From: Desulfovibrionaceae bacterium
GTDB taxonomy: Bacteria; Desulfobacterota; Desulfovibrionia; Desulfovibrionales; Desulfovibrionaceae
Length of the DNA: 34,709 nt
Direction of reading: 5' to 3'
NCBI GenBank assembly: GCA_015709315.1
Contig: JACCQI010000028.1
Span: 1-34,709, forward strand
Part shown: positions 23,121-33,175 of the stretch, piece by piece
Layout: each line of letters opens with the position of its first letter
Numbering within the stretch: position 1 is the first letter of the stretch
Made by a program: the position numbers and the translations under genes
The notes under the pieces: model-generated
Database searches by the model: none
Told to the model about the DNA's origin: nothing
Seen by the model: only the letters and a program-made list of their open reading frames with translations

Positions 23121-23672
23121 TTATTTGTCACCCATCAACTCCGGGAGGGCGTTCCCGAAATTACTTGATCCCGGTGCGGCCGTATTTCGCGCCCTTGGCC
23201 GTTGCCGTTCATGCCGGGAGGCGGACCCGGTGCCCGCCTCCCGGACCGGGATGGGATGTCCACCGGGGCCTCTCCCCGGCAGCGGCTATGAGCATACCCC
23301 CGGTTTCGGCCCAAACCCGGTTTGGGGAACGAATGACGGGAAAAAGCGGGCCATAGGATAAAATTGGCGCTTGACAGGGGACGGGAATCGCTCCTTTCAA
23401 TACGCGTTTTCCGCGTCCGCCGCCCGGCGGGAAAAACGGACCGCTTACCGGCGACGGGGGCGGCGCTTTGGACCGATTCGCCGTTCACCGGGCGATATCT
23501 GACCGTTCACGGAAAAAGGGACGCCACGGCGGGCGGCCTCTTATAGAGGATATCGTGTTCGCCGCGTTACGAATCATGTGGGGGCGCGGCAGGCGTCAAT
23601 TTTTTAAAAAGGCACGGCTCGTTCCGCCGGGGTATGTTCAAAGACACAACGCAAGATCAGGAGAATTCCGAG
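23121..23672. other. Long intergenic region upstream of acetyl-CoA synthetase
   Basis: No gene is supported in this 550-base stretch. It holds a hairpin at 23214-23244 with an 11-bp stem (CCGGGAGGCGG and complement) and nine-base loop, and a TTGACA at 23371-23376 with no convincing -10 at the right spacing. A long regulated leader for the downstream gene is possible. Confidence 0.4.
23214..23244. promoter_or_regulatory. Intergenic 11-bp hairpin
   Basis: CCGGGAGGCGG (23214-23224) pairs with CCGCCTCCCGG (23234-23244). No U-run follows, so it is not an obvious terminator; its role is unknown. Confidence 0.4.
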
Positions 23673-25655
23673 ATGAGCGAAGAAAAGAAAATCGAGAGTA
23701 TGCAGAAAAACGGGCAGATATTCCAACCCGACACCGCCATGCAGGCCCAAGCCTGGATTCGGAACATGGAGGCTTACGAGGCGGCCAACGAAAAGGCGCT
23801 GAACGACCCCGAAGGCTACTGGGGCGACCGGGCCAAGGAACTGCTCTCCTGGTTTTCCGATTTCGACTCGGTCCTTGAGGCCGACTACGACAAGCCCGAG
23901 TTCAAGTGGTTCGCGGGCGGCAGGACCAATGTCTCCTACAACTGCCTTGACCGACACCTGACCAACGGCCGCCGCAACAAGGCCGCCCTGATCTGGCAGG
24001 GCGAACCCGAGGAGGATACCCGGGTTTACACCTACCAGATGCTCTACACCGAGGTCTGCCGGTTCGCCAACGTGCTCAAGAAAAAAGGCGTCAAGCGCGG
24101 CGACCGCGTGTCGCTCTACATGCCCATGATCCCGGAACTGGCCATCGCCATGCTGGCCTGCACCCGGCTGGGCGCGCTGCACTCCATCGTGTTCGCGGGC
24201 TTTTCCTCCATCGCGCTCCAGTCCCGCATCGAGGACGCCGAGGCCAAGGTGCTGATCACCGCCGACGCGGTCCTGCGCGCGGGCAAGACCATCCCGCTCA
24301 AGCCCAATGCGGACGAGGCCCTCAAGGACTGCCCGTCCATCGAGCAGTGCATCGTGGTCAGGCGCGGCGGCAACGAGGTCGAGATGGTCGAGGGCCGCGA
24401 CTCCTGGTGGCACGACGAGATAGCCGCCGACGACATCACCTCCGAATGCCCCTATGAGGAAATGGACGCCGAGGACCCGCTGTTCATCCTCTACACCTCC
24501 GGTTCCACGGGCAAGCCCAAGGGCGTGCTGCACACCACCGGCGGCTACCTGACCTATGCGGCCCACACCACCCAGTACGTGTTCGACGTCAAGGACGACG
24601 ACGTCTACTGGTGCACCGCCGACGTGGGCTGGATCACCGGCCACTCCTACATCGTCTACGGCCCGCTGGCGCTCGGCGCCACCTCGGTCATGTTCGAGGG
24701 CGTGCCCAGCTATCCCAAGCCGGACCGCTTCTGGCAGATCGTGGACAAGTTCAAGGTCAGCATCTTCTACACCGCGCCCACCGTCATCCGCGCGCTCATG
24801 CGCGAAGGCGAGGAGTGGACCCGCAAGTACGACCTCTCCTCCCTGCGGCTGCTCGGCAGCGTGGGCGAGCCCATCAACCCCGAGGCGTGGCTCTGGTACC
24901 ACAACAATATCGGCGGCGGCAGACTGCCCATCGTGGACACCTGGTGGCAGACCGAGACCGGCGGGATCATGATTTCCGCCATGCCCTACGCCACTCCGCT
25001 CAAGCCCGGCTCCGCCACCCGGCCCCTGCCCGGCGTTTCCGCCAGGATCGTGCGCCGCGACGGCTCCCCGGCCGACGCCAACGAGGGCGGCCACCTGGTC
25101 ATCGACAAGCCGTGGCCCGGCATGCTCCGCAACGTCTGGGGCAACCCCGAGCGCTACAAGTCCACCTATTTCGCCGGGTTCCCCGGGGCCTACGAGGCGG
25201 GCGACGGCGCGCGTATGGACGAGGACGGCTATTTCTGGATCATGGGTCGGTTGGACGACGTCATCAACGTGTCCGGCCACCGCATGGGCACCGCCGAGAT
25301 CGAGTCCGCCCTGGTGGCGCACCCGGACGTGGCCGAGGCCGCGGTGGTGGGCATGCCCCACGACATCAAGGGCGAGACCATCTACGCCTACGTCACGCTG
25401 AAGTCCGGCATCGAGCCGTCCGACGACATGATCAAGGAACTCAAGGTCTGGGTCCGCAAGGAGATCGGCCCCATCGCCACCCCGGAATTCATCCAGTTCG
25501 CCGACGGCCTGCCCAAGACCCGCTCCGGCAAGATCATGCGCCGCGTGCTCAGGAAGATCGTCGAGGGGTCCGACGAGTTCGGCGACACCTCCACCCTGGC
25601 CGACCCGTCCGTGGTCACCGATCTGGTGGAAGGCAACAGGGATCTGGTCGGCTGA
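23673..25655 (+). CDS. acs: Acetyl-CoA synthetase (AMP-forming)
   Basis: 660 residues, the standard length. It carries the AMP-binding motif [11 protein letters not shown], the WWQTETGG motif, [20 protein letters not shown] and the C-terminal acetylation-site lysine region [10 protein letters not shown]. It activates acetate to acetyl-AMP and then acetyl-CoA. ATG 23673 has AGGAGA about eleven bases upstream; an ATG at 23634 would add 13 poorly conserved residues without a ribosome site. It is monocistronic, ending in the terminator at 25709. Acetate activation or propionate activation are both possible for this family; acetate is more likely. Confidence 0.94.
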
Positions 25656-26700: not shown

Positions 26701-27315
26701 ATGCCGATCAGTGATGCCGAGCTTTTTCTTCTCAGCGCCATCGAGCTGTGCGCCGCCGTGTTTCGCGGACCCGGCGCAGCGGATTGGAAGGCCCTGACCG
26801 ACTCAGGAGTGCCCGAACTCCTCGACCGTGTCCAGCATTTTCCCGGCTTCCCCGACGGCCCGCTGCACGGCCTGGAGGCCGGGCTGGCCGGGTGCGCGTC
26901 GGATTTCGGGGAGCTGGAAACCGAGTACGTCCGGCTCTTCATCGCCGGTCCGGGCGGCGTTCCCGCTCCGCTCTACGAGTCCTGCCATGCGGGCGGCGAT
27001 CCCCGGACCATGGGGGAACCCGCGCTGGCCATGCGGGACAGACTGGCCCGGGAGGGCCTGGCCGTAAACCTCGACTCCAACGAGCCGCCCGACCACCTGG
27101 CCATCGAGCTGGAATACCTCTATCACCTGCTGGCCCAGGGCTGGTCCGGCTCCGACCCGGCCCAGGCCCGGCGCGGCGTCTTGTTCGCGGCCGAGGTCAT
27201 GCTGCCATGGGTGCGCCGTTTCCGCGCCGCCCTGGCCGGTGCCGACCCCCATCCCGTGTTCCTGGCCGCCTCGGACCTGGCCCTGGCGATCCTCGCCGCC
27301 GTGCCCGCCGCCTAG
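26701..27315 (+). CDS. TorD/DmsD-family molybdoenzyme chaperone
   Basis: 204 residues, all-helical, with the family signature E-Y-V-R-L-F-x-x-G-P followed by P-A-P-L-Y-E-S (near residues 80-98) and the later DHLAIELEYLYHLL segment. Such proteins bind the Tat signal peptide of a molybdoenzyme and hold it during cofactor insertion. The partner is most likely the Tat-exported molybdopterin enzyme at 30983-33175. Its 3' end overlaps the Sec-rhodanese gene by four bases (convergent). Confidence 0.85.
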   Translation: MPISDAELFLLSAIELCAAVFRGPGAADWKALTDSGVPELLDRVQHFPGFPDGPLHGLEAGLAGCASDFGELETEYVRLFIAGPGGVPAPLYESCHAGGDPRTMGEPALAMRDRLAREGLAVNLDSNEPPDHLAIELEYLYHLLAQGWSGSDPAQARRGVLFAAEVMLPWVRRFRAALAGADPHPVFLAASDLALAILAAVPAA

Positions 27316-28319
27316 TCGATGGTGTCGGCCCGGATGACCGCGCCCTTGAGCACGTTCAGGAACGTGTCGTCGGGCGTGAAGTAGCCGCGCCGGATCAGCC
27401 GTATGACCCATGTCCCGTCGCCTTCGGCCTGCACCAGGTAGGCCAGGGGCAGCTCGGCCTGTCCCAGGCATTCGAAAATCCGCCCGTCCTTGTCCGAGAA
27501 GAGCGGGTAGGCCACCTCGTAATGCTTTCGGAACCGGACCACGGCCCGGTTCGAGTCGTACACGCCCAGGCCGATGATCTTGAGCCGCCCCCTGAGCACC
27601 GGGTCCGCCTCCACCTGCCGGAAGAAGCGGGTCAGCGCCTTGGTTTCGGCCACGCAGTCGCTGCACAGGGTGTTGTACAGCTGGATGAGCACGAATCGGG
27701 CCGACAGCTTGGACAGCTCCAGCCAGCGGGCGTCCTCGGGCAGGTCCAGGTATTCCCGGTCCGCGTCGCCGTTGAGCACGGCCACCCGGCAGGTGGGGAA
27801 GTCGTCGCCCACGGCCAGGATGTGCTGCTCCTCGGTCTTGCCCTCCACGAGTTGCGGGTGCGCCTCCTTCCAGCCGTGGAAGCCGTCCGGATACCGGAAG
27901 ACCTCGGTGTAGCCCAGCCGGGCCGCCCACCGGGCGGCGATGGAACTGCGCAGTCAGCGGAAGCTGCGGCAGTAGATGACCAGGGTCCGCTTGCGGTTTG
28001 GCCCGGCCAGCGCCTCGAAGGCGCGTTTCTTTTCGGCCGAGAGGTCCGTGCGGTCGCCCAGGTCGAATTCCATGTTGCGCGCGCCGGGGATGTGCCCGGC
28101 CGCGTACTCGTAGTCGGCGCGGGCGTCGATGAGCAGCATGTCCGCCCCGGACTCCAGGCGTTCCTTCAGCGTCCGGGCGTCTATTATTCGATACCCGTCG
28201 CTTGCCGCCTCGGCCTGTGCCGAGGCGCGCCAGACATCGTTCTCGTCGGCCCTTGCCGGGGGGCTGAAAAGGGCAAAGGCGAGGAGCAGGCATGCGGTCA
28301 ATGTGAATCGTTCGTGCAT
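27312..28319 (-). CDS. Probable selenoprotein: Sec-rhodanese fused to thioredoxin-like domain
   Basis: Read through an in-frame TGA (27954-27956), this is a 335-residue secreted protein. It has a signal peptide (about 1-24), a rhodanese domain (about 42-155) and a thioredoxin/TlpA-like domain (about 165-335) with C219-S-D-C222. The TGA is codon 122 in YC-RSFR-U-LRSSIAARWAARLGY; the adjacent triple rhodanese has YC-GGLA-C-PLSHKSA at the same site, so TGA replaces the catalytic Cys. The frame continues with rhodanese sequence directly after it (LGYTEVFRYPDGFHGW). A hairpin 16-34 bases downstream of the TGA fits a bacterial SECIS. Without Sec, the region would be annotated as two broken genes (28319-27954 and about 27848-27312). 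GGGGAG precedes the ATG. It lies 43 bases after the triple-rhodanese gene. Confidence 0.88.
27922..27938 (-). promoter_or_regulatory. Candidate bacterial SECIS hairpin
   Basis: On the minus strand GCCGCCC and GGGCGGC form a perfect 7-bp stem with loop GGU; the loop starts 22 bases after the last base of the TGA codon at 27954-27956. Bacterial SECIS elements lie immediately downstream of UGA, with a G near the start of the apical loop and usually GGU-like loops. The stem is unusually short and GC-rich, and the outer stem is not obvious. Confidence 0.7.
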
Positions 28320-28362: not shown

Positions 28363-29460
28363 CTACTTGTTGGGATGGACCTCGTAGGTGTTGTCCTCGT
28401 TGAAGTCGATGGTGGCTTCAAGGTAGAAGACGTCCTTGGCATCCGAGAATTTGTCCATGTACAGATAATATGCCTCGCCCGCCCGCGCTCCGGTGGAGCA
28501 GGTGAAGACGATGGGCTTGTCCGTGGGGATGTCCGCGGCGTTCTTGTCGATCATGTTCACGGTCATGTTGGTGGCGGACGGGAAGTGGCCCATGGCGAAT
28601 TCCTCGGGGTCGCGCACGTCGATCAGGGTGATGGCGGACGGGTTCTCCACGATGGTCTTCAGGAACCAGTCGGTGTCCACCGCGCCTTCGGCCTCGCCGG
28701 CCTGGACTGCGGTGCCGGACGCGCCGAACATCTCCTTCCAGCCGGGGTAGCCCGCTTCGGCCACCATGACCTGCTTGTAGCCCAGGGCGCGGGCCATGAC
28801 GGCGGACTTGTGGGACAGGGCGCACTTGTAGCCGCCGCAGTAGAAGACCAGGGTGGTCCCGGCCTTGTCCGCGGGCAGCATGCCGCGCTTGGCGGCGAAC
28901 TGCGTCTCCGGGATGCCGATGGCGGACGGGATGGCCCCCTCAAGGAACTTCTGATAGGGGCGCGAGTCGATCAGCATGTATTGTTCGCCCTCGGCCAGCA
29001 TGGAATGGAGCTTCTCCAGGCCGATGGAGGCGTAGGCGTGGCGCTTCTTGAAATCCGGGTAGCCCTCGGCGTAGACCTTGACGTTGGTGTAGCCCATCTC
29101 CTCGGCCATGAACGCGGACTTGTGGGACAGGGGGCAGGCCAGGCCGCCGCAGTAGAAGATCAGCAGCGCGTCCTTCTCCTTGGGCAGCTGGTCGGCCATC
29201 TTCTCGAACTGGCTGGCCGGGATGGACACGGCCGTGGGGATGTAGCCGTCCACGTACTTGGGTTTGTAGGGGCGCGAATCGATGATCATCACGTCCTTTT
29301 GCTTGGGCATCTTGGCGTACTTGGCCACGAAGGCGTAGTCCACGATGGTGTGGAACTGCCTGAACGCGGGGGTCTTTGACTCTTCGGCCGCGACCGGCCC
29401 GGCGAACGCCATCAGGGCGAAAGCCAGCATAACGGCCGCCGCAATCATTTTCTTGTGCAT
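28363..29460 (-). CDS. Periplasmic triple-rhodanese protein
   Basis: 365 residues with a signal peptide (about 1-25, GPVAA-EE) and three rhodanese domains. Domain 1 has YC104-GGLA-C109, domain 2 YC208-GGYK-C213 and domain 3 C321-STGAR. The first two use the CxxxxC arrangement in which the second Cys is catalytic; the third has the classic CxxGxR loop. All three have the D-S-R or D-V-R motif upstream. Rhodaneses carry persulfide sulfur and would pass it to or from the oxidoreductase encoded upstream. GGGAG precedes the ATG at 29460. It follows the cytochrome b gene with a hairpin between them. Confidence 0.92.
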   Translation of the reverse strand: MHKKMIAAAVMLAFALMAFAGPVAAEESKTPAFRQFHTIVDYAFVAKYAKMPKQKDVMIIDSRPYKPKYVDGYIPTAVSIPASQFEKMADQLPKEKDALLIFYCGGLACPLSHKSAFMAEEMGYTNVKVYAEGYPDFKKRHAYASIGLEKLHSMLAEGEQYMLIDSRPYQKFLEGAIPSAIGIPETQFAAKRGMLPADKAGTTLVFYCGGYKCALSHKSAVMARALGYKQVMVAEAGYPGWKEMFGASGTAVQAGEAEGAVDTDWFLKTIVENPSAITLIDVRDPEEFAMGHFPSATNMTVNMIDKNAADIPTDKPIVFTCSTGARAGEAYYLYMDKFSDAKDVFYLEATIDFNEDNTYEVHPNK

Positions 29461-29527: not shown

Positions 29528-30256
29528 TTATTCCGTGGGCTGCTCGCCCTCGGTCTCGGCCTTTTCCCACCACAGCCGGTGGTGGTGTTTGGCGTAGTCG
29601 TCGGGGACCGCGCCGGTGAACATGGATTTGAAGCCGGGCCGTTCCTCGGGGGAGATGGCGGCCATGTAGATGTGGACCAGCAGCCCGGCGAAGACCAGGC
29701 CCACGGCGATGAAGTGCAGGGCGATGGACCAGCTTACCCAGCCGGTGGCCTCGGCCCCGAAGGTCCGGTCCGACAGATACATGATCACGCCGGTGACGGC
29801 GATGACCACGCCGCCCGCCACCGAAACCTGGGCGAACGCCTTCTGGCCCATGTTGTAGAACCCCTGGGCGGGCAGCTCGGGGTCCATGCCCATGGCCTTC
29901 AGGGGCTTCGGCCCCAGCGTCATCAGGACCATTTTCTTGAGCATCCAGCCCATGTCGCGGGCCGGGCTGACCGAAAAGACCTCGGCCAGGAAGAACCTGG
30001 CGCCCCTGAAGTTGACGATCAGGTAGAGGATGAAGCCCGCGATCCAGACCAGCCCGATCCCCTCGTGGATGGCCAGCAGGTTTCCGCCGCCGCCCACCAG
30101 GGAGCGCATGGCCTCGGGATACCCCGAGCCGAACGGGTCGATGGCCGGGTTCTGGATCAGGCCCACGCCGGTCAGCAGGAGCAGAACCCAGCAGACGGCG
30201 TTGAACCAGTGGATGAGGATATCGGATTTGTCGTGCCGCTTGTGCATCTTAGCCAT
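29528..30256 (-). CDS. Membrane cytochrome b subunit (PhsC/FdnI type)
   Basis: 242 residues with four main hydrophobic segments and candidate haem ligands in ILIHWFNAVCW, LLAIHEGIGLVW, and IALHFIAVGLVFAGLLVHIYMA. The layout matches dihaem cytochrome b subunits of thiosulfate reductase (PhsC) and formate dehydrogenase (FdnI). It would link the quinone pool to the periplasmic enzyme. The start overlaps the ferredoxin stop by eight bases. It is not an NrfD-type subunit, separating this enzyme from classic polysulfide reductase PsrABC. Confidence 0.88.
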   Translation of the reverse strand: MAKMHKRHDKSDILIHWFNAVCWVLLLLTGVGLIQNPAIDPFGSGYPEAMRSLVGGGGNLLAIHEGIGLVWIAGFILYLIVNFRGARFFLAEVFSVSPARDMGWMLKKMVLMTLGPKPLKAMGMDPELPAQGFYNMGQKAFAQVSVAGGVVIAVTGVIMYLSDRTFGAEATGWVSWSIALHFIAVGLVFAGLLVHIYMAAISPEERPGFKSMFTGAVPDDYAKHHHRLWWEKAETEGEQPTE

Positions 30257-30983
30257 CGCGGTCCTCCTTGGAGTCGTTCCCGGCCAGGAACTGGCGGCCG
30301 AGCATGGCCAGCACGCCCAGGCCGGACAGGGCGACCACGCCCTTGACGAGCGGGGCGGCCTCCTTCATGGCGACCATGGAGGCGGGCACCACGGCCTCGC
30401 CGCCCCAGGTGGGGTCGCCGGGGTCGCCGACGTAGAACATGTTGGGCTTGGTGTCGGTCCGGGCGGCCACGCGGGTCAGCCGCCCCTTGTTCTTGCGGTA
30501 CAACCGACCGGCCTCGCTCTCGGGGTCGTTGACGTCGCCGAACACCCTGGCCTTGGTCGGGCAGGTGTCCACGCAGGCCGGGGGAAGTCCGGCGGCGCGG
30601 CGCTCGGGGCAGTAGTTGCACTTGTCGGCCTTGCGCTTGGCCGCGTTGCGGAAGCGCGCATGGTAGGGGCAGGCCGGGATGCAGTTGCCGCAGCCGATGC
30701 ACAAATCGTCGTCGATGACAACCTCCCCGGTTTCGGGGTCCTTGTAGGTCGCGCCCGTGGGACAGGCGTCCACGCAGGTGGGGTTGTCGCAGTGCATGCA
30801 CGCGCCGGGCTGGAACTTGGCCCTTGCCGTCAGGACGCCCGGCGCGGGCACGTCCTGCGTGGGCTTGATCCAGTTGCGGAACTGGTCCTCGGGGACGTCG
30901 TTGGCCACCTTGCAGGCGGCCACGCAAGCCTTGCAGTCGATGCACTTGGCGGCATCGATGACCATTGCGAGTTGCTGTGCCAT
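30249..30983 (-). CDS. Four-cluster ferredoxin subunit with C-terminal membrane anchor
   Basis: 244 residues with four [4Fe-4S] motifs: C14-x2-C17-x2-C20-x3-C24, CMHCDNPTCVDACP, CIGCGNCIPACP and CNYC-x11-CVDTCP. This is the electron-transfer subunit (PhsB/DmsB-like) between the catalytic subunit and the cytochrome b. A C-terminal hydrophobic stretch (about 210-232) is a possible membrane anchor, as in HybA-like subunits. No signal peptide is seen, so it would be exported with the Tat partner. Its ATG shares one base with the stop of the catalytic subunit (TAATG). Confidence 0.92.
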   Translation of the reverse strand: MAQQLAMVIDAAKCIDCKACVAACKVANDVPEDQFRNWIKPTQDVPAPGVLTARAKFQPGACMHCDNPTCVDACPTGATYKDPETGEVVIDDDLCIGCGNCIPACPYHARFRNAAKRKADKCNYCPERRAAGLPPACVDTCPTKARVFGDVNDPESEAGRLYRKNKGRLTRVAARTDTKPNMFYVGDPGDPTWGGEAVVPASMVAMKEAAPLVKGVVALSGLGVLAMLGRQFLAGNDSKEDRDG

Positions 30984-33175
30984 TAGGCCACCTTCCTTGT
31001 CACGGTTACGAATGTGGTGTGCATGGCGGCATTGCCCGTGACCGCGTCGTAGTCGTCTTCGAGAAGCTCGTTGATGGACGCGCCGTTGTTGTGGGACCGG
31101 GTCTGCATGGAGGACAGGGTGTTGAAGCCCGAGAGCATGTAGACCGTGTCCGGGCGGATCCTGTCCGTGACCTCGGCGGCAAGCTCCTGCCGGCCCACGG
31201 AGCTGGATACCTCGACCTTTTCGCCGTCCCTGATGCCGAGGCCCTCGGCGGCCCTGGTGTTGAGCCACAGGGTGTTGGACGGCTCGAATTCCCGCAGCAG
31301 AGAGTTGTTGGCCGTGGAGGACTGGGTGGTCAGGGCGTCGCGGCCCACCACCAGCCGGAACTGGTTGGCGGGCGTCCTGGCCGGTTCGGTGTAGACCGGC
31401 ATGGGGTCCAGGCCCATCTGGAGGTAGCGCTGGTTGTACAGCTCGATCTTCTTGGACAGGGTCTTGTAGATGCGGCCGTCGTAGATGCCGTAGACCTTGG
31501 ACGGGTTGTAGTACACGCCGTCCCGGTCCATGACCTTGAGGGCCTCGGGAATGTCGCGGGTCTGTTGCTTGCGGTATTCCTCGATGGTGAAGTCGAAGTA
31601 TTCGCCCAGCTCCATCCTGCCGGCAATGCCCTTGATGATGTCGAACAGGGAGCGGGATTCGTACAGGGGGTCGATGACCGGGTCGCGCTTGACCACGCAG
31701 GCGCAGGCCACGGAGCCCTGGAGGCCGGAACAGGGGTCGGTCCGTTCCAGGTAGGACTGCGACGGCAGGACCAGGTCGGCCATCCAGGCGGTGTCGGACA
31801 TGGCGATGTCCACCACGGTGACGAAGTCCATCCGGTTCATCATCTCGATGGTCTTCTTGCGGTTGGGCGCGGTGCCCATGGGATTGGTCTTGTACACGAA
31901 CCATCCCCGGATCGGATACGGGTCGTCGTTCAGGACGGCGTCGCGGGTGACCACGAAGGACCCCTCGTGCTCGAACATCATGGGCACCTTGTGCGCGTCG
32001 ATGCGGTCGTCCCGGTTTTCGTCGTACCAGGGGGCGTCGTAGGGCACGCCCGTAAGCCCCACCTGGCGCGCGGCCAGCAGGCCGCCGGGCTTGTCCCAGT
32101 TGCCCAAAAGCGCGTTGACGATGGCGAAGCTGCGGCGGATCTGGGTGGAGTCCTCGTAGTCCGAGGTGCGGCGGCCGGGATAGACCATGGATGCCGGGGC
32201 CGCGGCGGCCAGCTCGCGGGCGATGCGGGCGATGTCCTCGGCCGGGATGCCGCATTGCTCGGCGGCGAAGCCGGGGGTGTACGGCCCCAGGTGCTCGGCG
32301 AGCAGCTCGATGCCGTAGGTCTTTTCCGCGACCCACTGCGGGTCGTAGAGCTTTTCGCTGATGATGACGTGCGCGAGCGCGAGCATGAAGGCCATGTCCG
32401 TGCCCGGACGGATGGGATGCCATTCGTGGGACAGGGCGGCGGTCTTGGTGTAGCGCGGGTCGAGCGTGACCAGCTTGCAGCCGTGGTCGCGGATGGCGGT
32501 CATCAGGTCCATGGAGTCCGGGGTGACCAGCGCCTCGAAGCGGTTGGCCCCGGCCATGATGATGTATTTCGAGTTGAGCACGTCGGCAAAGGGCACTTCG
32601 CCGTAGGTGTCCAGAAAGGCCCGGTTGCCCGACACCAGGCACAGGGATTCGTGCGAGGTGACGTTGAAGGAGCCGTAGACCTCGGCAAACCGCGAAACGA
32701 ACTGGGAATGCAGGTCCGTGCCCGCGGAAAAGAGATGGCCGCAAGGGGTGTGTTTTTTGCGGACCTCCTCCATCTTTTGGGCGGCCATGTCCAGGGCCTC
32801 GTCCCAGGGGATGCGCTGCCACTTGCCCTCGCCGCGTGCGCCCTTGCGGAGCAGGGGGTGCTTGAGGCGGTCGGGGTCGTAGACCTGGGCGATGCCCGCG
32901 TTGCCGCGCGCGCACAGCATGCCGCGCGACTTCAGGAATTTCGGGTTGGGGTCCAGCTTTTTGACCACGCCGTCCTCGACGCGCGCGATCAGTCCGCATT
33001 TATTGAAACAGATGTCGCAGGCCGAGAACTTGGAGTCCCAGGCCGGGGCCGGGACGGCCGCCCGGGCTTTTTTCAGGCCGCCCAGCAGGGCCGGGCCGCC
33101 CATTGCGCCCGCCGCAACCAGGCCGGACGCCTTGAAGAAATCGCGGCGGGACATCGTCTGTTGGGGATTCGACAC
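30983..33175 (-). CDS. Tat-exported molybdopterin oxidoreductase, PhsA/PsrA-like catalytic subunit
   Basis: 730 residues. The Tat signal is MSRRDFFKASGLV. The [4Fe-4S] motif is C53-x2-C56-x3-C60-x27-C88. C179 in SHESLC is the likely molybdenum ligand; Cys ligands are typical of thiosulfate, polysulfide and tetrathionate reductases. Further Mo-bis-PGD motifs (IIMAGANRFEAL, DLVLPSQSYLERTD) are present. Acting in the periplasm, it probably reduces thiosulfate or polysulfide, or works in reverse. The substrate is not decided by sequence. GTG 33175 with GGAGG is the start. It is operonic with the cytochrome c upstream and the b-type and rhodanese genes downstream. Confidence 0.88.
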   Translation of the reverse strand: MSNPQQTMSRRDFFKASGLVAAGAMGGPALLGGLKKARAAVPAPAWDSKFSACDICFNKCGLIARVEDGVVKKLDPNPKFLKSRGMLCARGNAGIAQVYDPDRLKHPLLRKGARGEGKWQRIPWDEALDMAAQKMEEVRKKHTPCGHLFSAGTDLHSQFVSRFAEVYGSFNVTSHESLCLVSGNRAFLDTYGEVPFADVLNSKYIIMAGANRFEALVTPDSMDLMTAIRDHGCKLVTLDPRYTKTAALSHEWHPIRPGTDMAFMLALAHVIISEKLYDPQWVAEKTYGIELLAEHLGPYTPGFAAEQCGIPAEDIARIARELAAAAPASMVYPGRRTSDYEDSTQIRRSFAIVNALLGNWDKPGGLLAARQVGLTGVPYDAPWYDENRDDRIDAHKVPMMFEHEGSFVVTRDAVLNDDPYPIRGWFVYKTNPMGTAPNRKKTIEMMNRMDFVTVVDIAMSDTAWMADLVLPSQSYLERTDPCSGLQGSVACACVVKRDPVIDPLYESRSLFDIIKGIAGRMELGEYFDFTIEEYRKQQTRDIPEALKVMDRDGVYYNPSKVYGIYDGRIYKTLSKKIELYNQRYLQMGLDPMPVYTEPARTPANQFRLVVGRDALTTQSSTANNSLLREFEPSNTLWLNTRAAEGLGIRDGEKVEVSSSVGRQELAAEVTDRIRPDTVYMLSGFNTLSSMQTRSHNNGASINELLEDDYDAVTGNAAMHTTFVTVTRKVA

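Follow-up and report, generated by a model that had tools for sequence, protein, structure and literature searches.

The window analysed here is a stretch of 34,709 nucleotides from a Desulfovibrionaceae bacterium. Its minus strand carries at 27312..28319 a gene for a fusion of a rhodanese with a ResA/TlpA-like domain, 335 aa long with UGA read through. The earlier note had described the minus-strand frame from 28319 to 27312 as broken by a single TGA, and this was confirmed by the reading-frame scan: one internal stop was found at codon 122 (27954..27956, minus strand), followed by the TAG stop at 27312-27314 (minus strand). Codon 122 is the predicted selenocysteine (Sec) in the motif C117-x4-U122-x-R-S. 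The Cys of codon 117 (27969..27971, minus strand) takes the canonical rhodanese active-site position. The N-terminus (28248..28319, minus strand), which ends with ...PPARA, is hydrophobic and by eye resembles a signal peptide, in agreement with the secretion claimed before; a helix was modelled for residues 3-17.

With UGA read through, residues 48-153 matched the rhodanese family PF00581 with 70.2 bits (gathering 22.2). The match covers codon 122, thus the rhodanese runs on either side of the TGA as claimed. C-terminal to this domain, residues 195-298 matched AhpC-TSA (PF00578) with 28.7 bits (gathering 26). Together with the thioredoxin-type pair C219-S-D-C222 (27654..27665, minus strand), this bears out the C-terminal thioredoxin-like domain with CSDC that the earlier note had read from the translation. 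No NCBIfam model reached its own cut-off for the fusion protein. Two further cysteines are C284, within the ResA-like domain, and C177 (FPxCR), conserved in 23 of the 29 full-length rows that alignment A3 contains.

The AlphaFold2 model had a mean pLDDT of 92.9 and a pTM of 0.67. Each domain appears to be well modelled; the packing of the rhodanese against the ResA-like domain is unsure. With Foldseek, the C-terminal half of the model matched ResA (1su9_B, TMt 0.83). The first rhodanese in the list, at rank 25, was 6mxv, which superposed poorly (rmsd 16.0). Hence, the rhodanese assignment rests on PF00581 and on sequence alignment. As in the rhodanese superfamily, the PF00581 score lies above gathering and the active-site Cys follows a strand. 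The loop is longer than usual, with two extra residues compared to 6mxv, the one rhodanese alignment shown.

Upstream of the fusion gene, on the same strand, lie genes for a triple-rhodanese protein with a signal-like start (28363..29460), a PhsC-like membrane subunit of cytochrome b561 type (29528..30256, PF01292), a PhsB-like 4Fe-4S electron-transfer subunit whose start is not settled (30249..30980) and a PhsA-like molybdopterin oxidoreductase (30983..33175). The best NCBIfam match of the PhsA-like protein was the thiosulfate reductase NF012032 (6e-158), although its 527 bits are below the cut-off of 694. Its start SRRDFFK is similar to a Tat signal, with a PF10518 score of 20.2 bits that stays under the cut-off of 22.7. 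A TorD/DmsD-like chaperone gene (26701..27315, plus strand, PF02613) is convergent with the fusion gene. An acetyl-CoA-synthetase-like gene (AMP-binding) at 23634-25655 on the plus strand is apparently unrelated to the phs-rhodanese unit.

A search of genome contigs yielded 211 confirmed candidates; among the 80 of these 211 that were listed, the first 27 (L048-L074) were taken as orthologues. The closest named relatives in this search and in the tree belong to Pseudodesulfovibrio, and the window is therefore most likely from this genus. The order phsA-phsB-cytochrome b-triple rhodanese-fusion gene was present at 20 of 27 loci; at 18 of these 20 the convergent TorD-like gene was there too. Contig ends interrupt the order at L061 and L073. 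The triple rhodanese follows the fusion gene at L060 and L062, and at L060 no phsABC match was found within the fetched stretch. At L072 it is placed before phsA, and L063 and L071 gave no triple-rhodanese match. Within the genus, 29 of 36 genomes have the fusion gene; the same 29 have the triple rhodanese and a close PhsA of 74-100% identity, and in 28 of these 29 the fusion gene adjoins the triple rhodanese (exception G647). Of the seven genomes without the fusion gene, six have only a PhsA relative of 33-34% identity; the seventh, the fragmented genome G710, holds a partial close PhsA. From this gene neighbourhood the fusion protein very likely belongs to a Phs-type functional unit.

Among 119 genomes of the family, 81 matched at E 0.001, many through one domain only; full-length matches were seen in 11 of the 119, the window counted, among the matches listed. 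Eight of 395 phylum genomes matched at E 1e-25. For the rhodanese-only alignment (A4), 43 of the 395 matched at E 1e-22; the A4 rows with two TGA may be TsoB, a selenoprotein discussed below. A scan of viral contigs with the gene's alignment confirmed no relative, and the anti-phage library gave no match.

Of the 27 orthologous loci, 18 have TGA at codon 122 and 9 have a Cys codon. With 12 further copies and the window, 40 copies were available, of which 29 have TGA and 11 have TGC or TGT, so that the homologues with Cys at this codon, which the earlier note had proposed to look for, do exist. The search pattern demanded U or C at this codon, and no copy submitted failed to match. In a second reading the codon was TGA, TGC or TGT in 19 of 19 copies, some of which probably overlap the 40. 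The fusion gene of the 29 genus genomes contained exactly one in-frame TGA in 24 cases and no stop in five; TAA or TAG was found in frame in none of the 29. Therefore, the single TGA is not a matter of chance. The 36-genome table gives the count of TGA and not their position; TGA was located at codon 122 in 13 newly fetched genus copies and in those among the 40.

Selection was examined with nine genus copies, eight with TGA and the Cys copy of Pseudodesulfovibrio pelocollis (L052), giving 36 pairs. Downstream of codon 122, pS was 0.42-0.85 and pN 0.12-0.25; upstream, pN was 0.18-0.32. In all 36 pairs pS exceeded pN, both before and after the TGA. Judging from these values, selection at the protein level is continued beyond the TGA.

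The genome of the window (3.28 Mb, listed as 100% complete) was searched for selA, selB and tRNA-Sec of the Sec machinery, as the earlier note had suggested. Genes for selA (601.3 bits, cut-off 267.9) and selB (383.6 bits, cut-off 242.25) and a tRNA-Sec (80.7, gathering 47) were found. Formate dehydrogenase alpha (FdhA), used as control, showed one in-frame TGA in two of three genes above the cut-off in this genome. Based on selA, selB and tRNA-Sec, the Cys orthologues, the selection on both sides and the constraint at the RNA level described below, UGA of codon 122 is almost certainly decoded as selenocysteine, in line with the earlier claim. Of the 26 genomes searched for the 27 loci, all but that of L062, 24 scored above the selB cut-off; these comprised 16 of the 17 TGA genomes and 8 of the 9 Cys genomes. 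No such score was reached for L051 (TGA copy), with many contigs and only match fragments, or for L057 (Cys copy), with a piece of selB at a contig end (237.8 bits). The idea that the state of codon 122 tracks the presence of selB was rejected, as TGA and Cys genomes showed no contrast.

A SECIS-like hairpin of 7 bp, GCCGCCC-GGU-GGGCGGC, can be drawn at 27922..27938 (minus strand), +16 to +32 after the TGA, with the apical GGU at +23 to +25; the structure is tentative. Constraint on this region was measured as codon-use-corrected synonymous divergence at same-residue sites. For the 22 Sec copies of the genus the divergence had its minimum over the TGA plus the 12 codons that follow: among 265 overlapping scan windows, those with the four smallest values (0.41-0.46, against a median of 0.86) start at 0, -1, -2 and +1. 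The sequence analysed here departs from its relatives, the value falling from 0.56 to 0.38 when it is left out. Without the codon-use correction, in nine copies, the +1 scan window ranked 13 of 265. Nine other Desulfovibrionaceae Sec copies gave 0.57 (rank 2 of 51), and seven Sec copies of Desulfarculaceae/Desulfobacteria gave 0.60 (rank 8 of 59, the lowest scan windows starting at +2 to +6). For 10 of 11 Cys copies the observed/expected value of the +1 scan window was 1.04 (rank 40 of 51), as for the six Desulfovibrionaceae Cys copies (1.04, rank 43 of 51). The five Desulfarculaceae Cys copies alone reached 0.59, but at rank 33 of 99. This pattern fits a SECIS element that is kept where UGA is kept.

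The particular hairpin is weakly supported. A 7-bp stem around the loop GGGC at +26 has all its pairs in 18 of 22 genus copies and 6 of 7 in L048. The window, L169 and L181 show 7 of 7 pairs in a register starting three bases upstream; both registers were chosen after the sequences were seen. Counting either register in all families, the full stem was present in 14 of 29 Sec versus 4 of 11 Cys copies. It was the minimum-energy fold in two of five Sec copies folded singly, the window and L020. Covariation in stem register A was weak, with two pairs changed on both sides and 40 of 500 shuffles as high. RNAalifold chose stems other than the drawn hairpin. The Rfam search over 27800-28100 gave two matches far below gathering and no SECIS family. 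The minimum free energy was no better than for shuffles, and folding z-scores of Sec and Cys copies barely differed (one-sided p 0.08). As a test for SECIS the folding energy was discarded as uninformative, because the two FdhA sites of the window's genome fail too. An RNA element downstream of the TGA is likely, and the drawn hairpin itself is tentative.

Two observations were made beside these. The Cys version L052 retains the full 7-bp stem of its Sec relatives and has the look of a recent change from Sec to Cys that left a relic SECIS behind. Furthermore, the codon directly 5' of the TGA is AGG in 15 of 29 Sec copies and, among further genus copies, in 11 of 13; at the corresponding place AGG occurs in 0 of 11 Cys copies, and the window (27957-27959) has CGC. 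AGG may be part of the RNA element.

The exchange of both residues was followed on a 39-row tree, of 26 Sec and 13 Cys rows, built without the codon-122 column. The states required nine changes, at least four of them forced by starred branches. With shuffled labels the mean was 11.0 changes, and 46 of 500 shuffles were as low as nine. On this tree Sec and Cys interchange repeatedly at codon 122.

The earlier note had assumed that Sec replaces the catalytic Cys. This did not hold: the canonical C117 is retained, and Sec stands five residues later in an enlarged loop. In the model, strand 112-116 is followed by the loop 117-123 and the helix 124-134. The active-site Cys of the solved rhodanese 6mxv aligns with C117 (whole-sequence E 6.6e-08; single-domain scores are weak), and the 6mxv gap falls at 120-121, beside residue 122. 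C117 is invariant in all 39 aligned rows. The consensus around the catalytic Cys of rhodaneses is given as C(R/Y)(K/H)G, starting at that Cys, in a passage of PMC3276061; the fusion protein reads CRSF at this position. As C117 occupies the canonical active-site position, Sec does not replace the canonical nucleophile and is the second member of a C-x4-U pair.

The claimed alignment of the TGA with C109 and C213 of the triple rhodanese was borne out: C109 is aligned and C213 corresponds by motif. However, both are the second cysteines of C104-x4-C109 and C208-x4-C213 and not the canonical catalytic ones; the third domain has C-x4-R. In L048 4363 and L072 2792 an in-frame TGA falls inside the triple-rhodanese gene, so that its first loop reads C-x4-U, in the column of C109 of the window. 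The product is a probable second selenoprotein of the unit in these genomes. A comparable loop is present in TsoB (NF045694), a rhodanese/DsbD fusion-like selenoprotein (Haft and Tolstoy 2025, as cited in PMC13188914). Of 297 class genomes, 11 have a TsoB above the cut-off, each gene with two TGA, and its loop reads U-x4-U-V-R-S in eight copies and U-x4-U-V-x-S in three. Set by eye on the common frame Y-[CU]-x4-U-x-x-S, its two Us fall on C117 and U122. From TsoB and the triple rhodaneses of L048 and L072 it follows that rhodaneses which are related but distinct have acquired Sec at this second position of the loop.

A release of sulfur by the protein's own CSDC pair, also proposed in the earlier note, is possible, but it is not general. 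CxxC is missing in two of 29 full-length rows of alignment A3 (L070 and L028) and in L027 of alignment A2. A3 also includes ten rhodanese-only rows, of which six have Sec without a thioredoxin-like domain; four of these six end at a TGA taken as stop. A strictly intramolecular cycle is disfavoured, because C219/C222 are missing in some fusions and Sec is kept in rhodanese-only rows. The fusions L070 (= L026), L027 and L028, which keep Sec and have lost CxxC, share the motif ECCTPD.

From these data the following cycle is proposed. SelB and tRNA-Sec would decode UGA at codon 122, aided by the RNA element just downstream; this step is well supported. C117 would be loaded with sulfane sulfur, for which thiosulfate, polysulfide or the triple rhodanese could be the donor. 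The C117 persulfide could then be attacked by the selenol of U122, by which sulfide would be freed and an S-Se bond formed. This bond might be reduced by C219/C222, or by a partner where the pair is missing. The rhodanese would then be a persulfide reductase or a sulfur-delivery protein for the respiratory complex and not a plain sulfurtransferase. We regard the chances as evenly balanced for a periplasmic Sec-rhodanese in which C117 loads, U122 resolves and the ResA-like pair recharges, serving the PhsABC-like unit. For U122 as the resolving residue they are slightly less than even; such chemistry is favoured because TsoB too joins this loop to a DsbD-like part (by NCBIfam name). The narrower assignment as a selenium-dependent persulfide reductase with a fused ResA-like recharging domain, feeding a PhsABC-type complex, is put forward tentatively.

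In a milder form of the claim that Sec is catalytic, Sec122 itself would be the sulfur acceptor, a selenenyl-sulfide carrier, with C117 assisting. Sec is a stronger nucleophile than Cys, TsoB has Sec at both loop positions, and the second position was also the one taken by Sec in the triple rhodaneses of L048 and L072. Against this, C117 comes right after the strand, at the canonical place, where 6mxv has its aligned active-site Cys, and never varies in the 39 rows, and residues 120-121 just before Sec are absent from 6mxv. On balance we consider an accepting Sec122 unlikely. Still less probable is a redox-repair or peroxidase-like selenoprotein that guards the periplasmic molybdoenzyme and does not handle sulfur. 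The ResA/TlpA-like domain would suit such a role, and most predicted selenoproteins resemble thiol oxidoreductases according to a section of PMC9312934; the retained rhodanese active-site Cys and the tight linkage with the Phs-like complex and the triple rhodanese speak against it.

A TGA acting as true stop would mean a broken gene, a sequencing error or a truncated rhodanese followed by a thioredoxin-like protein from the GTG at codon 158, which opens a frame of 178 aa, is preceded by AGGAGG in the window and has a start-like codon as counterpart in 18 of 22 genus copies; however, this codon is absent in 4 of 22, AGGAGG precedes it in only 2 of 22, the stretch from the TGA to codon 158 averages 76% identity in the 22 copies, the Cys orthologues are contiguous through codon 122, the only stop in 24 of 29 genus copies is a single TGA, and selection at the protein level persists downstream, so that this explanation is strongly disfavoured and appears extremely improbable, with the pseudogene, sequencing-error and split-gene versions all rejected from the Cys orthologues, the one-TGA copies, the selection and the codon-158 data.

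A bacterium of the sulfate-reducer type appears to make a secreted selenium-containing sulfur-handling protein encoded beside a thiosulfate-reductase-like enzyme. Here a Sec-rhodanese can be assigned to a definite operon, and in one genus both occur together in 29 of 36 genomes. The natural Sec and Cys versions, and a Sec position suggesting a resolving and not an accepting role, make it a testable enzyme. The use of thiosulfate or polysulfide in these bacteria may depend on the selenium supply. If the proposal is true, a persulfide reductase would be a new selenoenzyme activity joining selenium to dissimilatory sulfur metabolism, and TsoB and the triple rhodaneses of some relatives would likewise have recruited Sec to the same loop position. 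Annotation readily mistakes such genes for truncated ones.

A 2005 prediction from marine metagenomes already included rhodaneses with Sec, as stated in a part of PMC1088965. Several forms are tabulated in reviews of 2022 and 2026 (PMC9312934, PMC13188914), and their functions are described as unclear in a passage of PMC9312934. Our literature search gave no description of this fusion or operon in the portions of the sources available, and the 2025 TsoB paper may mention relatives; no paper joining thiosulfate reductase, rhodanese and Pseudodesulfovibrio was found. The table of PMC13188914 contains a rhodanese-like selenoprotein form 1 with UxxS (WP_010941598.1) and NF041203 rhodanese_LYCAU with CxU, in which Sec follows two residues after Cys. 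U-x-x-S of form 1 fits U122-L-R-S; that the Sec position is the same is a guess, as both were compared by motif only. WP_010941598.1 is presumably a Geobacter protein. NF041203, a rhodanese family with Sec members, matched the fusion protein weakly (3.8e-06; 26.6 bits, cut-off 115) and differs in the Sec spacing, x instead of x4.

ResA/TlpA thiol-disulfide oxidoreductases share the fold and CxxC of the C-terminal domain. With 37.6 bits the fusion protein is below the ResA cut-off of 170 (NF002854), and its domain sits behind a rhodanese. Sud of Wolinella is a periplasmic rhodanese serving the sulfur-reducing molybdoenzyme PsrABC; it is not known to have Sec or a thioredoxin-like domain. TsoB was the best NCBIfam match of the rhodanese domain of the fusion (4e-29, residues 22-154). 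Only the rhodanese part was matched, however, with 101 bits at a cut-off of 805. In both proteins a thiol-redox part is attached to a rhodanese whose enlarged loop has Sec as its second member. TsoB carries Sec at both positions (U-x4-U) and a DsbD-like part, whereas the fusion protein combines C-x4-U with a ResA-like domain and sits in a phs-like operon; the comparison with TsoB covered the proteins.
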